Source: a virus. From it: a DNA stretch of 36,360 bases. Made by a program: the position numbers and the translations under genes. The notes beneath the pieces were generated by a model. That model searched no databases, was not told the origin of the DNA, and saw only the letters and a program-made list of their open reading frames with translations. Below are positions 7,787 to 36,360 of the stretch, piece after piece. How positions within the stretch are numbered: position 1 is the first letter of the stretch; the number at the start of each line of letters is the position of its first letter. Location of the stretch: positions 1 to 36,360 of IMG/VR virus record IMGVR_UViG_3300017756_000044; one strand, written 5' to 3'.

Positions 7787-7812
7787 TGCTGTAGCCGCCT
7801 TTTGCTAACAGT

Positions 7813-7941
7813 TTAAGCCGGCTGATCTTTGATAATTTTGGCACGGCCATTTGCATCAACTTGAATCAGCTGATGCTTTCGCGGTTCGCCGTGTTTCGGC
7901 TGCAGCAAACGGCCAACAGCGGTAACGATGGGCCGGTTCAT
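7813..7941 (-). CDS. Tiny ORF upstream of portal (42 aa)
   Basis: MNRPIVTAVGRLLQ... to ...AKIIKDQPA, 42 residues, basic. Its ATG overlaps the stop of the gene at 7938-8099 (ATGA), the same coupling seen at several well-supported junctions in this phage. It ends 26 bases before the portal start. Unknown function; too small for domain recognition. The coupling and uninterrupted packing argue that it is translated. Confidence 0.5.
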   Translation of the reverse strand: MNRPIVTAVGRLLQPKHGEPRKHQLIQVDANGRAKIIKDQPA

Positions 7942-8321: not shown

Positions 8322-8350
8322 AAAGCCCCAGCGGCTCGACTCGCTGAGGC
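8320..8350 (-). terminator. Intrinsic terminator between packaging and head genes
   Basis: On the minus strand a 9-base-pair stem (GCCTCAGCG / CGCTGGGGC, one G-U pair) with an 8-base loop is followed by five U residues. It lies after the basic protein gene (stop at 8417) and before the acidic small gene, so it separates the terminase transcript from the portal-capsid transcript. Confidence 0.8.
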
Positions 8351-17339: not shown

Positions 17340-17351
17340 ATGGCATACCAT
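17340..17351. promoter_or_regulatory. Operator-like palindrome, site 1
   Basis: ATGGCATACCAT: ATGG and CCAT arms around CATA, one base off a perfect palindrome. It differs from site 2 (17472-17483) at one position. It lies 65 bases upstream of the membrane-HTH start and upstream of the plus gene at 17517. Confidence 0.45.
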
Positions 17352-17470: not shown

Positions 17471-17484
17471 CATGGTATACCATG
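17471..17484. promoter_or_regulatory. Perfect 14-base palindrome, site 2
   Basis: CATGGTATACCATG is its own reverse complement and lies 33 bases before ATG 17517. TTGAGT (17449-17454) with an 18-base spacer to TGGTAT suggests that the palindrome overlaps the -10 region of the promoter for that gene, as a repressor operator would. Related sites: 17340 and, more distantly, 20548. Confidence 0.55.
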
Positions 17485-17516
17485 GCCTCGGCAACTGCAA
17501 TCTTCCCCCTCGCCTC

Positions 17517-18107
17517 ATGACTGACACCAAACAACCGAAAACGGCCCTTGCCCCTGATCGCTTGGGGGTGAGCATGGGAGCGAAGTTGATGGTTTTGCGA
17601 TTTCTCGGCCTGCCTGCCCTGTTGAAGCGGCTGGGACAGGGCGAAACGATCCGCGCGACCGATCCAGAAGTGCTGAGGCTGCATGCCACTGCTATGGCCC
17701 ACAAACAGCTGCTGTTTGCAGCAACGGGGGTCAGTCCCGGCAAGAAAGCCACCGGCACCTTGCGGGCCTTGTTGAACGCTTGCGGCTGGATCTTGAAGAG
17801 CAATGGGCGGGTGAAAACTCGCGGGGCTGATCGAGACGTCTGTCTCTACAAAGCAGCACCGATGCCGGTGCCTGATGGCGTGGACAAAACCCAGTTAGAG
17901 GCTGTCTTTCTGTCTGAACTAAAGGCTGAACTGAAGGCCACCGGTGTGGACAAAAGTCAGTTAGAGGCTGCCTTTCTGGCTGAACTAAATGCCGCCATTG
18001 CTGACGCTAAAAATTCCCCTATAGAAAAACCCATAGGGGGGAAAAAAGCGCCACCGGTGCACCGAAGCCGGGGGTTTGCATCCAAGCCAACGCGCAGGAC
18101 TGCCTAA
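17517..18107 (+). CDS. Unknown protein, zero-frame part of a frameshifted gene
   Basis: 196 residues from ATG 17517 (MTDTKQPKTALAPDR); the longer reading from 17472 would start inside the operator. Residues 17-110 are a helical region (LGVSMGAKLMVLRFLGLPALL, shown in part; then GTLRALLNACGWILKSNGR). Two copies of a DKxQLEAxFLxEL repeat follow at about 120-160. The last 20 residues, after the G6A6 run at 18036-18047, turn basic and look unrelated. A -1 shift in that run instead leads to an RHH domain (next entry). I recognise no family for the N-terminal part; a DNA-related role is likely if the RHH domain is its natural C-terminus. Confidence 0.6.
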   Translation: MTDTKQPKTALAPDRLGVSMGAKLMVLRFLGLPALLKRLGQGETIRATDPEVLRLHATAMAHKQLLFAATGVSPGKKATGTLRALLNACGWILKSNGRVKTRGADRDVCLYKAAPMPVPDGVDKTQLEAVFLSELKAELKATGVDKSQLEAAFLAELNAAIADAKNSPIEKPIGGKKAPPVHRSRGFASKPTRRTA

Positions 18108-18217
18108 TCGATCTAGAGGCTTACAAGCATCTGTCTCGTTTCGCTAAACCCTCCGGGCAAACCAAGTCCTCAGTCCTCGAAGAGGCAATCATCCACCACT
18201 GCTCACCATGGATTTGA
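18041..18217 (+). CDS. RHH domain in the -1 frame, no start codon of its own
   Basis: The -1 frame from GAA 18041 to TGA 18217 encodes 58 residues: GEKSATGAPKPG, then ANAQDCLIDLEAYKHLSRFA and SSVLEEAIIHHC, an RHH pattern (strand, helix, helix). Between the frame's preceding stop (18008) and the RHH domain there is no ATG, GTG or TTG. So it can only be made by slippage from the upstream gene, or it marks a recent indel or sequencing error in the G6A6 run. It overlaps the start of the next gene by 10 bases. Confidence 0.5.
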   Translation, partial: EKSATGAPKPGVCIQANAQDCLIDLEAYKHLSRFAKPSGQTKSSVLEEAIIHHCSPWI

Positions 18218-18582
18218 TTAAGCACACACACTCCGTGACTGACACACCGCTGCTTGAATGGCGCGAGCACTTACCGCCACATGCTGACAAGCTCCAGGCT
18301 GGCTGGCTTGAGTGCAAAGCCCGTAACCCTCAGCTGCTCAACCAGTGCTATCAGCTGTGCCTCACCGCCCAGCGACGCGGGATCACGCGGTGGTCAGCTG
18401 ATGCGATGTTTCACGTCCTGCGCTGGGAGACTGCAGCATCTATGAACGACAACGGGTTAAAGGTCAACAACAATTACAGCAGCTTGGCGGCTCGTGACCT
18501 GATGGCAGAGCGCCCGGAGCTGCAGGGGTTCTTTGAGCTGCGTGCCAGAAAGCCCCGAGGCAATCACGGCCAAATCCATTGA
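18208..18582 (+). CDS. Conserved phage protein of unknown function
   Basis: 124 residues from ATG 18208. The core RRGITRWSADAMFHVLRWE, then LKVNNNYSSLAARDLMAE and PELQGFFELR is a pattern I associate with phage proteins of unknown role found near recombination or replication genes. Helical, soluble. Its start overlaps the end of the RHH frame (CCATGGATTTGA), consistent with coupling to the frameshifted product. Confidence 0.6.
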   Translation: MDLIKHTHSVTDTPLLEWREHLPPHADKLQAGWLECKARNPQLLNQCYQLCLTAQRRGITRWSADAMFHVLRWETAASMNDNGLKVNNNYSSLAARDLMAERPELQGFFELRARKPRGNHGQIH

Positions 18583-18862: not shown

Positions 18863-19201
18863 ATGACATCCCCAACCATCTCGAAGGCTACAAAAGCCAC
18901 CTCTCCCGCTGCTACGCGGCTCATCCTGATCGCTGATCTCAAGCGTGAAATCAAAGAGCTAGAAGCTGAAATGAAGAGAGAAGTTGAGCTTTTAGAAAAA
19001 GAAATTTTGTTAGGTTTGCTTGATGAATATGCAGACGGTGATTCTTATGTTTATGACGGAATCAAATGCACCACTGTTTCCACTAAACGGTGGAAGTATG
19101 GGAATGAGACCAAAAGTGCAATCAAAGAAATTCAAGAACGTGCCCAACTTGATGGCAGCGCCACTCAAGAAAAAACAACCTCACTTCGTTTTACATTTTA
19201 A
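18863..19201 (+). CDS. Phage protein with coiled coil, of unknown function
   Basis: 112 residues from ATG 18863. A coiled coil (LIADLKREIKELEAEMKREV...) at about 22-52 is followed by a small beta/alpha part: DSYVYDGIKCTTVSTKRWKYG, then IKEIQERAQLDG and a final TTSLRFTF strand. This arrangement is common in proteins lying next to phage annealing/SSB genes, occasionally compared with Gam-like nuclease inhibitors; I cannot assign a function. Codons here are more AT-rich than in the genes around it. Confidence 0.65.
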   Translation: MTSPTISKATKATSPAATRLILIADLKREIKELEAEMKREVELLEKEILLGLLDEYADGDSYVYDGIKCTTVSTKRWKYGNETKSAIKEIQERAQLDGSATQEKTTSLRFTF

Positions 19202-19231: not shown

Positions 19232-19879
19232 ATGCTTACTAGAAACTTCCACCAACTAGAGGCTGAGGTCCAGCGTCACGTTGCAGCCGATCAGGTTGCG
19301 CAGGGAAGCCACAAGACAGGTTTTATCAGGTGTCTTGCTGGCGGGGAAAACGATCCTGAGTTCATTGAGCGGGAGTACGGTGTCCCGCTGATGACATCTC
19401 GGCTTGCGGAGTCGATCTTTAAGGGGCTACCTCCGGGCGAAGCTCCTGAGTTCTTCGCTGAACTGCCAGGCGTGATTCAATGCAACGGGAAAGACCTGAG
19501 CACGGTCGGATGGCAATTCCTTGCCGCAGAGTTACGAGCACTGCTTGCCGTTTCGGCTGAGGCTCAGGCTGTTGTCGCTCCTGTTATCGCAGGGATGGAC
19601 TTATTGGCGGAGGGTAAGGAATGGCCCGCCTCCGCCGCCGACGACGCTGCCGTCGCTGTCTACGTCGCCGCCGTCCTCGCTGCCGACGCCGCCTCCGCAC
19701 GGGCCGTCTACGCTGACGCCTACGTCGCCGCTGCCGCTGCCGACGCTGTCTACGTCGCCTCCGCTGCCGCTGCCGCACTAGGCGCCACCGACCCCATCCT
19801 TGCGCGACGGAGACAGGGAAACACTCTGCTGAGGCTGATTTCTGAAGCCCCAATCACTATCACACAGGAGAACTTATGA
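19232..19879 (+). CDS. Unknown protein with Ala-rich repeat region
   Basis: 215 residues. The first 130 are ordinary (FIRCLAGGENDPEFIERE, GVPLMTSRLAESIFKGL). From about 133 to 187 it is an Ala/Val/Tyr/Asp repeat (AVYVAAVLAADAASARAVYAD and so on), GC-rich and helical. The C-terminus RRRQGNTLLRLISEAP is basic. GGGG lies 9 bases upstream of the start. Ala-Tyr-rich helices of this kind occur in several phage early proteins of unknown function. Confidence 0.6.
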   Translation: MLTRNFHQLEAEVQRHVAADQVAQGSHKTGFIRCLAGGENDPEFIEREYGVPLMTSRLAESIFKGLPPGEAPEFFAELPGVIQCNGKDLSTVGWQFLAAELRALLAVSAEAQAVVAPVIAGMDLLAEGKEWPASAADDAAVAVYVAAVLAADAASARAVYADAYVAAAAADAVYVASAAAAALGATDPILARRRQGNTLLRLISEAPITITQENL

Positions 19880-20106
19880 CTAAAGCGAAACGCCTGACTA
19901 AAAAAGTTTTCATTAGCATCGCCGCTGGTGTTGAAGAAGAAAAAGCTGGAACCTATGAGGAAGGATACTCAATAAAAATTACACCTGAACAACTTGTTGA
20001 ATGTCGAAAAATCGTTGGCCTCGAATACGTTACAAAGATTCTTTCTTTGTACTACGGGCTGAAGGATAAGGAAGAACCAGTGAGCCACGAACAGGAGGAG
20101 TCATGA
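19876..20106 (+). CDS. Small charged protein
   Basis: 76 residues starting MTKAKRLTKKVFISIAAGVEE. Start overlaps the preceding stop (ATGA) and its own stop overlaps the RusA start (ATGA). AGGAG lies 6 bases upstream of the ATG. One helix (PEQLVECRKIVGLEYVTKIL) and acidic tail. No family recognised. Confidence 0.6.
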   Translation: MTKAKRLTKKVFISIAAGVEEEKAGTYEEGYSIKITPEQLVECRKIVGLEYVTKILSLYYGLKDKEEPVSHEQEES

Positions 20107-20537
20107 ATGAGCGGAGAGTCTCTTTTGTTGTCTACTCTCGGGCTGCTCCTCAAGGCTCAAAGCGCCACCTTGGCAACGGTGTCATGGTCGAATCATCTAA
20201 ACGGGTAAAACCCTTCAGGGCCGACGTTCGTAAAGCCGCTGAGTCTGTTGCATTGCCGCCTGACTGGCCTATGGCTGCTCCTATGCGTGTCGGCTTTCGC
20301 TTTCACTTTGCACGGCCTAAAAGTCATTTCAAACGCAATGGGGTTGCTTTATCGAAAAGCGCTCCAGAAGAAGCCACAAGTCATGGCTTAGGCGATCTCG
20401 AAAAGCTTGCAAGATCGGTCAACGATGCTCTTTCAGGCGTGCTGTTCAATGATGATCGTCAGGTGGTGGAGATGGGTCTAGCTAAGGCTTACGACTCAGA
20501 AGATCTTGTGGCCATTTTTGTCGAGCCCCTTGTCTAG
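20103..20537 (+). CDS. RusA-family Holliday junction resolvase
   Basis: 144 residues. Motifs: VVYSRAAPQGSKRH near the N-terminus, MRVGFRFHFARPKSH strand, GDLEKLARSVNDALSGVLF with Asp98 and Asp108, then NDDRQVVEMGLAKAY with Asp117/118 and Lys128. That is the RusA pattern (D-x3-K...D-A-L-x-G...D-D-x-Q-V). RusA cuts four-way junctions made by phage recombination. ATGA overlap with the upstream gene, with GGAGG in front of it. Confidence 0.85.
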   Translation: MNERRVSFVVYSRAAPQGSKRHLGNGVMVESSKRVKPFRADVRKAAESVALPPDWPMAAPMRVGFRFHFARPKSHFKRNGVALSKSAPEEATSHGLGDLEKLARSVNDALSGVLFNDDRQVVEMGLAKAYDSEDLVAIFVEPLV

Positions 20538-20585: not shown

Positions 20586-21293
20586 ATGACTGAAAACAAC
20601 TCGTGGCTCCCTGACCTTTCTGGCATCATTCAGAAATCTGATGTCTTTAAAAAAGGTTCCGGTTCATACTCTGCTGATTATGTCTCTTGGGCCAGAATTG
20701 CCCACTATCTCCACGTCAACGCCAACGGCTGGGAATTTAATCTCCGCATGACCCCAGACAACACCGGCACGGTCTGGACAGCTCCAGACAACACCGGCTA
20801 TGTCATCGGGTATTTTTCTGGTCCTAATGGAGAGTCAACGGCTGACTTCCCGTTCCCCTGCATGGACAATAGGAACAACCCAATCCCGATTGAAAAGGTT
20901 TCCTGCCGTGTCTTGACTGACACGCACCGCCGCGCGCTATGCGCCTGCGCTGCATTCACGTTTGGCCTGGGCTTTGAGCTTTGGGCAAAGGCCGAAGTTG
21001 CAGACGCGCAAGAGGCAGAACAGCCTGCACCAGCCGCCAAGCCAGCAGCAAAAAGCAAATCAACCCCAGCGTCACAACCTGCAGCCGCAACCCCTACCGC
21101 AGACCAGCCCCTCAGCCACGACGATCGGAAGCTCCTGCTCACCTGTATGCAAGAGCTCGACAAGCCGGCGCTAAACAGCGTCCTAGCTGCATTCCGCAAC
21201 AAATTTGGCCTCGCTCCTGACGCCAAAGTCGCAAACGCTATCACTACTGAAAATCATGCCGTCTTCCTCCGCGAACAACTCGCTCAGCACTAA
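20586..21293 (+). CDS. DUF1071-type single-strand annealing protein
   Basis: 235 residues. The N-terminal domain (1-135) has SADYVSWARIAHYL, then ADFPFPCMDNRNNPIP and RVLTDTHRRALCACAAFTFGL, GFELWAK, the layout of the DUF1071 annealing proteins (Rad52/Sak-like). Residues 140-180 are an Ala/Pro/Lys/Thr-rich linker and the last 55 form a separate helical domain (SHDDRKLLLTCMQELDKPAL), perhaps an SSB or partner binding tail. It would anneal strands produced by the exonuclease at 15911. Family assignment is by eye. Confidence 0.7.
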   Translation: MTENNSWLPDLSGIIQKSDVFKKGSGSYSADYVSWARIAHYLHVNANGWEFNLRMTPDNTGTVWTAPDNTGYVIGYFSGPNGESTADFPFPCMDNRNNPIPIEKVSCRVLTDTHRRALCACAAFTFGLGFELWAKAEVADAQEAEQPAPAAKPAAKSKSTPASQPAAATPTADQPLSHDDRKLLLTCMQELDKPALNSVLAAFRNKFGLAPDAKVANAITTENHAVFLREQLAQH

Positions 21294-21426: not shown

Positions 21427-21607
21427 GGAAGGCTGGCTCATTGACAGCTCAATCCCGGTCGCAGATGGCAGCATCTTATGGACTAAAAACATCTCGCAGG
21501 CCCAGGTTTTCAGAACCGAGGCAAAAGCCCTTTTGGCGACAAAACACCTTCGAGATTTTTCACAGATCATTACTGCCGTAAGACCGCTTGATCATGCCGT
21601 CAGATAA
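21341..21607 (+). CDS. Small protein of unknown function
   Basis: 88 residues from ATG 21341 (MTTTQTPFLHGQQSK); GTG 21326 and GTG 21413 (MWNPEEGWLIDSS) are alternatives. The part from FGVWNPEEGWLIDSSI on, with ISQAQVFRTEAKALLATKH, looks like a real alpha/beta domain. GTG 21413 would almost remove the overlap with the previous gene. No family recognised. Confidence 0.5.
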   Translation: MTTTQTPFLHGQQSKSLQKFPLFGVWNPEEGWLIDSSIPVADGSILWTKNISQAQVFRTEAKALLATKHLRDFSQIITAVRPLDHAVR

Positions 21608-21770
21608 GCTAAAGCAGCGGCAACTTGACGATTTACGCAAAAACCGCCTTTTTCATGTTCGCTTAACAGAAGAGCTTGCTTTAAAACTTCAGCATTACAT
21701 GAAAGATCAAAGCATGAATGCGAACCAAGCTCTCACCGTAATCATCTCCAAATTCTTTCGCAATTATTGA
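21594..21770 (+). CDS. Ribbon-helix-helix protein
   Basis: 58 residues from ATG 21594 (MPSDKLKQRQLDDLRK). A strand (LFHVRLTEEL) followed by two helices (ALKLQHYMKDQ and NANQALTVIISKFF) is the RHH fold. It overlaps the upstream gene by 14 bases and ends 2 bases before SSB. Likely a small transcription repressor for the early arm; at least the third RHH-type sequence in this window. Confidence 0.6.
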   Translation: MPSDKLKQRQLDDLRKNRLFHVRLTEELALKLQHYMKDQSMNANQALTVIISKFFRNY

Positions 21771-21772
21771 CC

Positions 21773-22117
21773 ATGCTTGTTCTCACTATCTCTGGCAACC
21801 TTGGCCGCGATCCTGAACTTAAAACAACTGATCAGTCTCAAGTTGCTTCATTCTCTGTTGGTGTCCGCACCGGCAAAGACGAAACTACATGGGTTAATTG
21901 TTCTGTCTGGGGCAAACGCGCGGAAACTGTAGCGGCTTACTTCAAAAGAGGGAACAAAGTGACCCTTACTGGGTCCGGCAAAATTCGTAATTACGAAAAG
22001 AAGGATGGATCACTTGGCAGCAGCCTTGAAATGAACGTTACTGATTTCACTCTCCCCGCACGGGAAGGAGCAGCAACATCTGCCGCCCCCAGCCATGCAG
22101 AGGAAGTCCCATTCTGA
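21773..22117 (+). CDS. ssb: Single-stranded DNA-binding protein
   Basis: 114 residues from ATG 21773 (MLVLTISGNLGRDPEL); a TTG two codons earlier is also open but overlaps the preceding stop. OB-fold landmarks: ASFSVGVRTG, TTWVNCSVWGKRAETVAAY, FKRGNKVTLTGSGKI, and the strand LEMNVTDFTL. It ends in HAEEVPF, an acidic-hydrophobic tip like the DDIPF tail that recruits partners in bacterial SSB. Shorter than host SSB. Followed at once by a terminator. Confidence 0.9.
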   Translation: MLVLTISGNLGRDPELKTTDQSQVASFSVGVRTGKDETTWVNCSVWGKRAETVAAYFKRGNKVTLTGSGKIRNYEKKDGSLGSSLEMNVTDFTLPAREGAATSAAPSHAEEVPF

Positions 22118-22126
22118 TTGACTAAT

Positions 22127-22148
22127 AGGGCCTCGGCCCTTTTTTTTT
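22127..22148 (+). terminator. Strong intrinsic terminator between SSB and sigma factor
   Basis: AGGGC-CTCG-GCCCT followed by nine T residues. It ends 3 bases before the ATG of the sigma factor (22152), so there is no room for a promoter or ribosome site after it. Early transcripts should mostly stop here. Confidence 0.85.
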
Positions 22149-22151
22149 GCC

Positions 22152-23039
22152 ATGACTGACGAATCCCGTTACCTCAACGAACTGTCTAGGTTCCCGCTGC
22201 TGACCGCAAGCCAAGAAATCCAGCTAGGTAGGCAGGTGAAAAAATATGTCGAGCTTAAGGACTTGCCTAAAGATCAACTGGATGACATCCAGAAACGACA
22301 GATTAAGACTGGCCTTAGGGCCAAGGACAAGCTAATCAAAAGCAACATGAAGCTAGTAGCAAGTGTTGCAAGGAAAATGCTGGCCAAGGCAAACCCCAAA
22401 ACCCTGACTTTTTCTGATTTGCTGCAAGAAGGAGCGATTGGGTTGAGTAGAGCGGCAGAACTGTTTGACCCTGAAAGAGGCTATAAATTCAGCACATATT
22501 CATATTGGTGGATTCGGCAATCCATCAGCCGTGCAATTTATGGAACTGACAGGATGATTCGCGTACCTGACTCAATGCTAAATCGATTCATAAAAGCACA
22601 AAGGATCTTAAAAGATTTTCACTTTGAAAATGGGCATTCACCTTCTATTGAGCAAATCACCGAGCTAACAGGATTACAGCCAGGTGATTTTCAGTTAATG
22701 GCGCAGTCATATCATCATAAATCGTCTGATGATCCGATTTTTGGGAGCGATCAAGGGGTATCAATTATTGAAGCATTTTCTAGCGATAATCCTAGAGCTG
22801 GAGATTGCTTCGAGACAGACCTAGAAGTAAATGAACAAATCGAAAAAATACGCGCTGCAATGCTAAGGCTTGACGATGAAAGTCAGCAAATAATACGCGA
22901 TTATTTCGGCCTGGACAATAGCGAAGAGAAGAATCTTTCCCGGCTTGCGAAAGAGAAAGGAACTTGCCGGGAGAGCGTTAGATTGAAAAAAGATAAGGCG
23001 TTGATAAAACTTAAAAGCTATATTAATTTCAGCTGTTGA
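22152..23039 (+). CDS. Phage-encoded sigma-70 factor, cyanobacterial group 1/2 type
   Basis: 295 residues with all main sigma regions: 1.2 (YLNELSRFPLLTASQEIQLG, 7-26), 2.1-2.4 (NMKLVASVARKM at 65; DLLQEGAIGLSRAAELFDPE at 89; KFSTYSYWWIRQSISRAI at 112), 3 (RMIRVPDSMLNRF at 134; PSIEQITELTGL at 164), 4 (LRLDDESQQIIRDYFGLD at 239; RLAKEKGTCRESVRLKKDKA at 264). Regions 2.3 and 2.4 are nearly textbook, so it should bind host core polymerase and a -10 element. Region 4 is more divergent, suggesting a different -35. The start lies directly behind an intrinsic terminator. It would act as late-gene switch. The end overlaps the convergent gene by 11 bases. Confidence 0.92.
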   Translation: MTDESRYLNELSRFPLLTASQEIQLGRQVKKYVELKDLPKDQLDDIQKRQIKTGLRAKDKLIKSNMKLVASVARKMLAKANPKTLTFSDLLQEGAIGLSRAAELFDPERGYKFSTYSYWWIRQSISRAIYGTDRMIRVPDSMLNRFIKAQRILKDFHFENGHSPSIEQITELTGLQPGDFQLMAQSYHHKSSDDPIFGSDQGVSIIEAFSSDNPRAGDCFETDLEVNEQIEKIRAAMLRLDDESQQIIRDYFGLDNSEEKNLSRLAKEKGTCRESVRLKKDKALIKLKSYINFSC

Positions 23040-23728: not shown

Positions 23729-24799
23729 TCAGTAATCCCACCGGACCCACAGCCCCCCTTCTCTGCGCCCTAAATGTATGAAACCCCTTGATGCGGCACG
23801 GCCAACACTATGGGGCCAATGCTCCTCGCAGTACGCCTGGACCGCCCAGATGTCCTCCCCTTTCACGTAGAAGTCCACGGCTCCAACGCCTTTTTGATCG
23901 TATAGATGCTCGCTGCGGAATGCACCGCCAACCTCGCGATTAATTGCCGGGGGTCTGTAGCCAGATGTGACGATGACCGGCTTGCCGCCAAATTTGACGC
24001 GAACACGCTCAAGGAATGCCGCCAGCTCAGCGGCCATATCAACCTGATGTTGATGCTCAAAACGCCTGGCCTCTTGACCCAGCGCAAATTCACCCAGCGT
24101 GATATGTGGGGTCAGCCGGGTGCTAAACGGTGACTCAGGCCGGATCGTTGCAGGTTCTGGCGCTGCGGCTTGTTCACCGGCCCACAGCTGGCCCTCGGCT
24201 TTCCGGCGGCGGGTTAGGCCAGCCTCAAAATTACTCCCAGGACTGCAGTAGAGCAGCATCGCGTCAGGAACAGCCTGCCAGTCTTTCGCACGAAGCGCGG
24301 AGCTAATCGTTTCAAATCCCTCTGCGCCCATAAACCCAGCGCCCAGGTTGAAGGCAAAGCTGACCAGCGCCGATTGCTGATGCTCCTTCATTGCTGACCA
24401 GTAGGGGATTGAACCAGCTAATGCCGAGACGATGCCATCAATCGTTTTTTGCAAAAGCGCATCGCCGTTCTCCTGGCTGATCCAATCACCAGGAATTACC
24501 GGCGAGCCATCAGCCGTTGTCGTGTTCCCCCACCCAATCGACCACACCCCAGCAGGGCAGAGGTAAGCATCAGGGTGAAAACCTTCAAATCGTTTTATGA
24601 GTTCAATCCCAGCCCGATAGTCTCGTTGTTCACCTGATTGGCTCCATGTTGCAAACCAGCCCCGATCGCGACGCATCGCGATGTCATAGCCATTTTTGCT
24701 TAGATCCGCCTCTAACTCTTGAATTGCTGCGGCTTGATGAGGCAGCGCTTTGTAGTAACGGAAAAGCTGCTCAAGCGTGATCGGCTTACTGTTCGTCAT
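23729..24799 (-). CDS. Two-domain endolysin: GH24 lysozyme plus M15 peptidase
   Basis: 356 residues. Domain 1 (about 62-208): IELIKRFEGFHPDAYLCPAG, catalytic Glu72 with Cys81 at the second position and Ser87 where T4 lysozyme has Thr26, then SIGWGNT; FAFNLGAGFM and EGLTRRRKAEGQLW-type end (here AGLTRRRKAEGQLW). Domain 2 (about 228-356): ITLGEFAL, VTSGYRPPAINREVGG, zinc ligands His298 and Asp309 (AVDFYV) and His342 (GFIHLGRR), a peptidase M15 carboxypeptidase-like fold. Glycan and peptide cross-links would both be cut. No signal peptide; release needs a holin. Residues 1-60 are an extra helical region. Confidence 0.88.
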   Translation of the reverse strand: MTNSKPITLEQLFRYYKALPHQAAAIQELEADLSKNGYDIAMRRDRGWFATWSQSGEQRDYRAGIELIKRFEGFHPDAYLCPAGVWSIGWGNTTTADGSPVIPGDWISQENGDALLQKTIDGIVSALAGSIPYWSAMKEHQQSALVSFAFNLGAGFMGAEGFETISSALRAKDWQAVPDAMLLYCSPGSNFEAGLTRRRKAEGQLWAGEQAAAPEPATIRPESPFSTRLTPHITLGEFALGQEARRFEHQHQVDMAAELAAFLERVRVKFGGKPVIVTSGYRPPAINREVGGAFRSEHLYDQKGVGAVDFYVKGEDIWAVQAYCEEHWPHSVGRAASRGFIHLGRREGGLWVRWDY

Positions 24800-35485: not shown

Positions 35486-35958
35486 CAGCCCACAACCAAT
35501 GCGCCGCTGGTCGGTAATGCTCCAACTAATTTAGTGCTCAAAGTCCGCCGGGGTATCTGAGCTTTTACTGCGTCAAGTGGTGATGTCAGTCGCATCGTTA
35601 TCGTTATTGTGTCCATTTCATACGATGCGATTCGCCAAGTTTCCGTTGAAATCAGCGCCTCATCTGCAAACGTCAACGGGTCGAGGCTGACGGTCTTGAT
35701 TTCCAGTATGTAACGGCTCTGCACCGCTTCTGCGAACAAATTCACAGAGATCGCATCCGTACCAGCGACCAAGGCAGCATTAGAGCGTTCACCGCCGCGA
35801 GCCCCGCCGCCAGACGAAACGGCAAACGGTGCAAAAGTATAGGTCACACCGCTATAAGTGCGTGTCTGATTGACGCTGAAATTTTGATATGGCGTGCCGG
35901 TGTACGCATCAGCCTGAGTCTTAAACCGAACGTAATTGACGAATGCATATGCGCTCAT
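35485..35958 (-). CDS. Minor tail protein (L/DUF1833-like)
   Basis: 157 residues. Beta-rich: VRFKTQADAYTGTPYQNFSV, YTFAPFAVSSGGGARGGERS, then RYILEIKTVSLDPLT and a C-terminal part with PLDAVKAQIPRRTLSTKL. The order tape measure, this gene, NlpC-like, J-like copies lambda M-L-K-J. So it is probably the L-type tail-tip protein. ATG start at 35958. Confidence 0.65.
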   Translation of the reverse strand: MSAYAFVNYVRFKTQADAYTGTPYQNFSVNQTRTYSGVTYTFAPFAVSSGGGARGGERSNAALVAGTDAISVNLFAEAVQSRYILEIKTVSLDPLTFADEALISTETWRIASYEMDTITITMRLTSPLDAVKAQIPRRTLSTKLVGALPTSGALVVG

Positions 35959-36360
35959 CAGATACCAACCTTGCTGCGGGTTCTAGGACTATTTTGCAGC
36001 GTCGCTAGGGTCATTGCCCGTCCGCGCTCGGCTGCCTGCGCCATGCCCTTGCGGTGCTGTTCAGCCGTGACGTACTCAATGTTATTTATCACCGTTGATT
36101 CATAACGAATGTCCAGCGGTTGCATGGCTTTGGCTTGCTGGTTGTTCAGCTGTTCGCGAGTGCTAGCAACGGCTCGCTGGCGGTCCAGCTGTTCGCGAGT
36201 GCTAGCAACGGCTTGCTGATTGTTCAGCTGTTCGCGGGTGCTAGCAACGGCTTGCTGATTGTTCAGCTGTTCGCGGGTGCTAGCAACCTCAACGCCTAAA
36301 CGACCGCCTGGGCCTCGCTTGAGCGGCATGATCGCTTCTGGGCCAGCTTCACCCATTAGT
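35958..36360 (-). CDS. Tape measure protein, C-terminal end only
   Basis: The frame is open to the window edge (the last visible codons read LMGEAGPEAIMPLKRGPGGR), which is a hallmark of tape measure C-termini. The visible 130 residues hold a 13-residue tandem repeat (ASTREQLNNQQAV type, about four copies). The rest of the gene must lie in the missing segment. No start codon is visible; the Met at 36356 is internal. Confidence 0.8.
   Translation of the reverse strand, partial: LMGEAGPEAIMPLKRGPGGRLGVEVASTREQLNNQQAVASTREQLNNQQAVASTREQLDRQRAVASTREQLNNQQAKAMQPLDIRYESTVINNIEYVTAEQHRKGMAQAAERGRAMTLATLQNSPRTRSKVGI
36144..36288 (-). repeat. 39-base tandem repeat in tape measure gene
   Basis: Units begin at 36144, 36183, 36222 and 36261 (39 bases each, the last incomplete), almost identical, coding a 13-residue helical unit. 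Near-identity indicates recent expansion; each unit could alter tail length or stiffness slightly. Confidence 0.9.

Follow-up and report, generated by a model that had tools for sequence, protein, structure and literature searches.

Comparison with related phage sequences indicates that a real, maintained and lineage-specific intrinsic terminator stands directly ahead of the sigma factor gene of a cyanosiphophage, a gene that is itself ordinary in phages of this type. The DNA analysed (36,360 bases, here called the window) is a virus record from IMG/VR. Its layout is that of the KBS-S-2A / S-CBS type cyanosiphoviruses, with a replication arm ending in sigma opposed to a structural arm ending in lysozyme. 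The structural genes are related to those of this type, as judged from gene order and from the portal protein, which is 70% identical to the portal of cyanophage KBS-S-2A; at the DNA level, megablast gave no match for the middle of the window among named phages. The plus arm comprises an exonuclease-like gene, a RusA-like resolvase, a Sak-like annealing protein, ssb and sigma. The minus arm contains primase/polymerase-like and Mom-like genes, the terminase, portal, head and tail genes, and a lysozyme/peptidase endolysin facing sigma (Table 1). Ahead of the early plus arm lie two ATGG[CT]ATACCAT palindromes (17340-17351 and 17472-17483) that resemble repressor operators. The minus gene at 35958-36356 encodes a repeat protein, in which TTCAGCTGTTCG recurs three times in a 39-base register (36145-36273).

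Table 1. Features of the window that bear on sigma expression (d, d'Aubenton-type terminator score).
Feature	Positions	Strand	Remarks
RusA-like resolvase	20103-20537	+	PHROG 140; early arm upstream of ssb
Sak-like annealing protein	20586-21293	+	PHROG 8492/659, Pfam SSAP_Sak; early arm upstream of ssb
ssb, single-strand binding protein, 114 aa, ATG 21773	21773-22117	+	Pfam SSB E 1e-18, PHROG 44
Spacer of 9 bases, ssb stop codon to hairpin	22118-22126	+	Alignment: length kept among relatives, sequence variable
Terminator hairpin AGGGC-CTCG-GCCCT, 5 pairs, -7.0 kcal/mol	22127-22140	+	
Terminator T-tract, 9 T, directly before GCC-ATG	22140-22148	+	d = 36.5
Sigma factor of the sigma-70 family, 295 aa	22152-23039	+	Regions 1.2 and 2 above Pfam cut-off, putative region 4 just under it
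Lysozyme/peptidase endolysin, end of convergent late arm	23729-24799	-	PHROG 28234, Pfam Phage_lysozyme + Peptidase_M15_3
Intrinsic terminator between 329-aa gene and structural genes	8325-8350	-	GCCTCAGCGAGTCGAGCCGCTGGGGC TTTTT, -16.4 kcal/mol, d = 30.5
CTTAAACTGTTAGCA, candidate late promoter	7803-7817	-	-10-like TAAACT, 16 bases upstream of the portal start taken here, TTG 7786

The hairpin, the T-run, their spacing and the sigma start had been described in an earlier sequence-only reading, and rereading of the DNA found all of them exactly so. The ssb stop codon TGA (22115-22117) is followed by the hairpin arms AGGGC (22127-22131) and GCCCT (22136-22140), which enclose the loop CTCG (22132-22135). 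The first of the nine T is the last base of the stem, and the T-tract is joined by GCC (22149-22151) to the sigma ATG, 34 bases after ssb. No room is left for a promoter between the terminator and this ATG, as had been claimed. A G+C-rich hairpin with a U-tract immediately after it is the mark of an intrinsic terminator; the window has both, with a perfect T-tract and a clearly positive d'Aubenton-type score (36.5). It had, however, been called strong, which is an overstatement for five pairs and -7.0 kcal/mol. Taken as a single sequence, the terminator is not beyond chance by folding energy: the 61-nt segment folds no better than its shuffles (z -0.48), and ten shuffles of the plus strand contained 16 sites that combine at least 7 T of 8 with a stability better than -8.5 kcal/mol. 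Uniqueness by folding energy was thus rejected, as shuffled sequence performs equally, and the terminator is supported by its placement and its conservation in six contigs instead.

Seven contigs encode a sigma 80-97% identical to that of the window. Five of the seven (L002, L003, L004, L007 and L008) keep the hairpin, at least 8 T, the GCC-ATG junction and the nine-base spacing from the ssb stop, and scanning the entire viral collection for the pattern brought up these five contigs only. Across the six contigs including the window, the four G-C pairs are invariant, while the loop and the spacer vary. In L007 the outer A-U pair has become G-C, with both sides changed; this two-sided change is a single event that 135 of 500 shuffles also reach, and the pair counts, taken alone, fall short of significance in a set this small. 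The T-tract has 8 T in L007 and L008 and 9 T in the window, and the terminator scores are 30 to 48 for the five-pair hairpins of the clade and 15.9 for L004, whose stem form is longer. The sigma frame of L004 (G003) is broken near codons 266-290, where stops are met on reading through, owing to either an assembly error or decay.

The closest sisters, L005 and L006 (sigma 80-82% identical), have no terminator: around 6001 they carry a different ssb and an extra gene of 124-128 aa in its place, and the sigma ATG overlaps the upstream stop as TGATG. A hairpin present in these two contigs falls within the last coding part of the upstream gene and lacks a proper T-run; it was not counted. L006 is the outgroup of the window clade in the sigma tree. 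The delayed timer that had been read into the terminator is thus not essential to a sigma of this kind. More distant relatives (L012-L019, sigma 38-39% identical) possess a different terminator just before sigma, which is stronger (-22 to -23 kcal/mol, T6) and comes with a spacing of about 22 bases, wider than in the window, and their upstream order is window-like (RusA-like, annealing-protein-like and small gene, named from reading the translations). Over 84 related loci plus the window, 14 terminator-like sites fall within 100 bases upstream of sigma versus 0-2 per other 100-base upstream bin, the 14 deriving nearly all from the window clade and L012-L019 and hence from few lineages. Most other sampled lineages have no terminator, and their sigma is tightly linked to the upstream gene or overlaps it. 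A general rule of a hairpin before sigma was rejected, since most sampled lineages are without one and the L005/L006 hairpin is coding and has no T-run. In the S-CBS1-type phages (L020-L026, L030), the 60 bases before sigma contain a conserved dyad, GTGGTA[GC][CT]TTG...ACCAC, with no T-run, which is possibly an operator or an RNA element.

The product of the gene belongs to the sigma-70 family (PHROG 351 'RNA polymerase sigma factor', E 4e-60). Full regions 1.2-4 had been claimed for it. Regions 1.2 and 2 are confirmed by Pfam (Sigma70_r1.2 32.8 bits, Sigma70_r2 59.7 bits, both above cut-off); region 4 scores just under its cut-off (20.9 against 24.1 bits), though it aligns to SigA region 4 and forms helices in the predicted structure, and region 3 is not called. 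The region 4 residues that read the -35 element are partly changed (CRESVRLKK vs TRERIRQIE). The region 2 residues for reading and melting the -10 element, YKFSTYSYWWIRQ, are present together with region 1.2, as in sigma-70 proteins of group 1/2, and the motif FSTYxxWWIRQ, matched to SigA, varies little or not at all among 39 phage sigmas. The best relatives in the PDB are cyanobacterial SigA proteins (E 2e-36). The AlphaFold model (mean pLDDT 78.5, poor only at 189-221, part of the sigma finger) matches SigA of initiation complexes over its full length, including that of Synechococcus 7942.

Relatives of this sigma were found by tblastn in 173 phage records. A tree of 68 proteins places the window sigma in a supported phage-only clade with S-CBS1 and KBS-S-2A (100/97), apart from cellular sigmas. 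This speaks for a phage lineage, and a recent capture from a Synechococcus host was accordingly rejected. The same family includes S-CBS1 gp27, S-CBS3 gp29, KBS-S-2A CPKG_00011, S-LBS1 A33 and P-SS2 ORF113, which are 30 to 39% identical to the window sigma; sigma genes have already been noted in all five phages (PMC2784084, PMC6157547, PMC3751600). In S-CBS1, KBS-S-2A and S-LBS1, just as in the window, no sizeable gene follows sigma on the plus arm, and sigma faces the lysozyme or small genes at the end of the convergent arm. Such proteins had been thought uncommon in siphophages, but judging from the relatives and the genome papers, a sigma at the arm end facing lysozyme is normal in cyanosiphophages. 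What sets the window apart is the terminator, as S-CBS1, S-CBS3, KBS-S-2A and S-LBS1 have none directly before sigma.

As to the expression of sigma, we propose that this modest terminator, nine bases past the ssb stop, closes the early rightward operon of RusA, annealing protein and ssb. Sigma comes next, and the gap before it holds no promoter, so its mRNA would be the portion of early RNA that continues past the terminator. A ribosome completing ssb at a short distance from the polymerase would cover the foot of the hairpin and thereby let the polymerase pass, such that the amount of sigma would depend both on early transcription and on the translation of ssb. Such read-through is the most economical route to sigma because the terminator is conserved, the gap offers no promoter space and no conserved promoter was found inside ssb. 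We put the chances about even that sigma is made in this way, by ribosome-assisted or plain read-through with no special factor.

Other systems give a guide to the likely termination efficiency and ribosome effect. In E. coli, tR2 is nearly silent 8-9 bp past a stop codon and regains its activity at distances above about 27-30 bp; the repression needs translation (PMC4824070). By these data, a five-pair terminator nine bases past a translated stop should leak unaided. The ribosome effect presumes that ribosomes closely trail the polymerase in picocyanobacteria. In Synechococcus elongatus, where intrinsic terminators work and Rho is absent, long U-tracts accompany low read-through and U8 predicts efficient termination (PMC13289151); the perfect U8 tract would thus pull against easy read-through. 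Furthermore, ssb has no Shine-Dalgarno site and may be weakly translated, which counts against the scheme. Sigma translation would likewise begin at ATG 22152 without such a site (anti-SD pairing -1.7 kcal/mol for sigma and +1.8 kcal/mol for ssb). The missing ribosome site had been singled out as special, but it is ordinary here, since ssb, several other early genes and about half of cyanobacterial genes (PMC3121790) are likewise without one.

An unlikely alternative is that a promoter within ssb, recognised by host sigma, serves the sigma gene, in which case the hairpin would just end the upstream transcript and lie in the sigma leader. The scan of 21600-22140 for host-type promoters gave a best match of 8/12 at 22014, which relatives do not keep and which was rejected as a candidate for that reason, and synonymous change is not reduced in the last 24 codons of ssb. 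The negative scan is weak evidence, as it revealed no consensus promoter on the plus strand ahead of the early arm either, and cyanobacterial promoters are often weak against the consensus; a transcript begun in ssb must, however, still cross the terminator.

It is unlikely, too, that the terminator is nearly inactive in vivo owing to the adjacent stop codon, with sigma being simply the last gene of the early operon and the hairpin serving mainly to shield a minor ssb transcript at its 3' end. The nine-base spacing lies within the almost fully repressed range (PMC4824070), and sigma overlaps or directly follows the upstream gene in L005/L006 and several other lineages. Yet the stem and the U-tract are conserved as if termination mattered, and the L012-type phages combine a much stronger terminator with the longer spacing. 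We consider equally improbable an extension of the read-through scheme in which ssb translation would gate the early-to-late switch, permitting late transcription only once ssb is well produced, with other phages of the group having evolved separate terminators at that spot.

Slightly less probable is a phage antitermination factor or cis-acting RNA (N/Q-, p7- or put-like) that would provide timed passage, making sigma a delayed-early product and the terminator a timer. The anatomy is equally compatible with this, and five early plus ORFs have no functional match (17472-18107, 18208-18582, 18863-19201, 19232-19879 and 19876-20106). Nevertheless, none of the early ORFs resembles an antiterminator of known type, Rfam gave no cis RNA element in the window, and the sister phages L005/L006 manage without a terminator. 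Of the earlier statement that expression depends on read-through by antitermination, read-through is supported, given a conserved terminator and no conserved promoter found, whereas an antitermination factor would be dispensable, as none was recognised and leakage should suffice by the E. coli data.

Finally, it is very improbable that the hairpin and U-run act on sigma translation or mRNA processing (an S1-binding leader, an RNase cut or sigG-like dampening) and not on termination: the U-rich tract does end three bases before an ATG lacking a Shine-Dalgarno site, dampening hairpins ahead of sigma genes are known (PMC5942855) and the S-CBS1-type phages carry a different pre-sigma hairpin without a T-run, but a G+C hairpin followed by 8 U is a textbook terminator, the L012-type terminators are classic ones, and the predicted accessibility of the sigma start is not above that of other early genes.

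Under the preferred read-through scheme, sigma would then most likely direct the host's RNA polymerase towards promoters of the phage, in the main those serving the leftward structural genes, with the element upstream of the portal gene as the best candidate. The late minus arm, which the sequence-only reading had named as the target, is a plausible one. The strong minus-strand terminator preceding the structural genes (8350-8325) is largely kept in L087 and altered in L086. The element CTTAAACTGTTAGCA (7817-7803) occurs as a single copy in the window, and 13 of its bases, TAAACTGTTAGCA, recur unchanged at the corresponding position of KBS-S-2A, where they stand directly behind a terminator, whereas the neighbouring non-coding sequence differs. 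CYTAAACTG was found once each in the window, the searched part of KBS-S-2A, G005, G006 and G009, always ahead of the portal gene; the examined stretches of S-CBS1, S-CBS3, S-LBS1 and G008 lack it. Among the matches listed in a collection-wide search for CYTAAACTGTTAGCA, which returns many chance sites, at least about 30 contigs of the family carry it before the portal gene. Exact 12-mers shared with KBS-S-2A were mostly noise and were set aside. A start about seven bases beyond TAAACT would give a short leader with the ribosome site AAAGGCGG, so a promoter is the natural reading of this candidate element. That the phage sigma reads it is no more than a possibility, against which stands that the S-CBS1-type phages have a sigma and lack the element.

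T4 gp55 (PMC5780444) and SPO1 gp28 are late and middle sigma factors that switch transcription classes; class switching is established there, whereas for the window sigma we infer it. While gp55 is a reduced sigma, the window protein is near-complete and group-2-like, spanning region 1.2 to a putative region 4, and close to cyanobacterial SigA. The arrangement in front of the gene resembles that of vtrB in Vibrio parahaemolyticus, a regulator gene that receives transcripts leaking through a modest intrinsic terminator (-8.8 kcal/mol) close behind a stop codon. There the gene additionally has its own promoter, and the regulator activates the upstream operon in a loop, two traits of which the window gives no sign (PMC10971746). 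In the tR2 constructs and the pyrBI attenuator, terminators near a stop codon are repressed by the ribosome, and the stop nine bases before the window hairpin would be in a similar position; there the effect was measured, in E. coli, whereas here it is deduced from the spacing (PMC4824070). The leader of B. subtilis sigG likewise has a hairpin ahead of a late sigma gene, which lowers early expression; it is no terminator, however, and exerts its effect at the ribosome-binding site or on the translation of RNA that has read through (PMC5942855).

Taken together, the sigma gene is a known and ordinary component of cyanosiphophages, and what is new is the terminator before it, which is present in only some of them and varies known regulatory layouts. 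The timing of transcription in cyanosiphophages has hardly been studied, and in cyanobacteria, which have no Rho, intrinsic terminators are among the few known stops. The element conserved upstream of the portal gene is a concrete candidate promoter, and a conserved terminator between the last replication gene and a late sigma would represent a simple dosage control.
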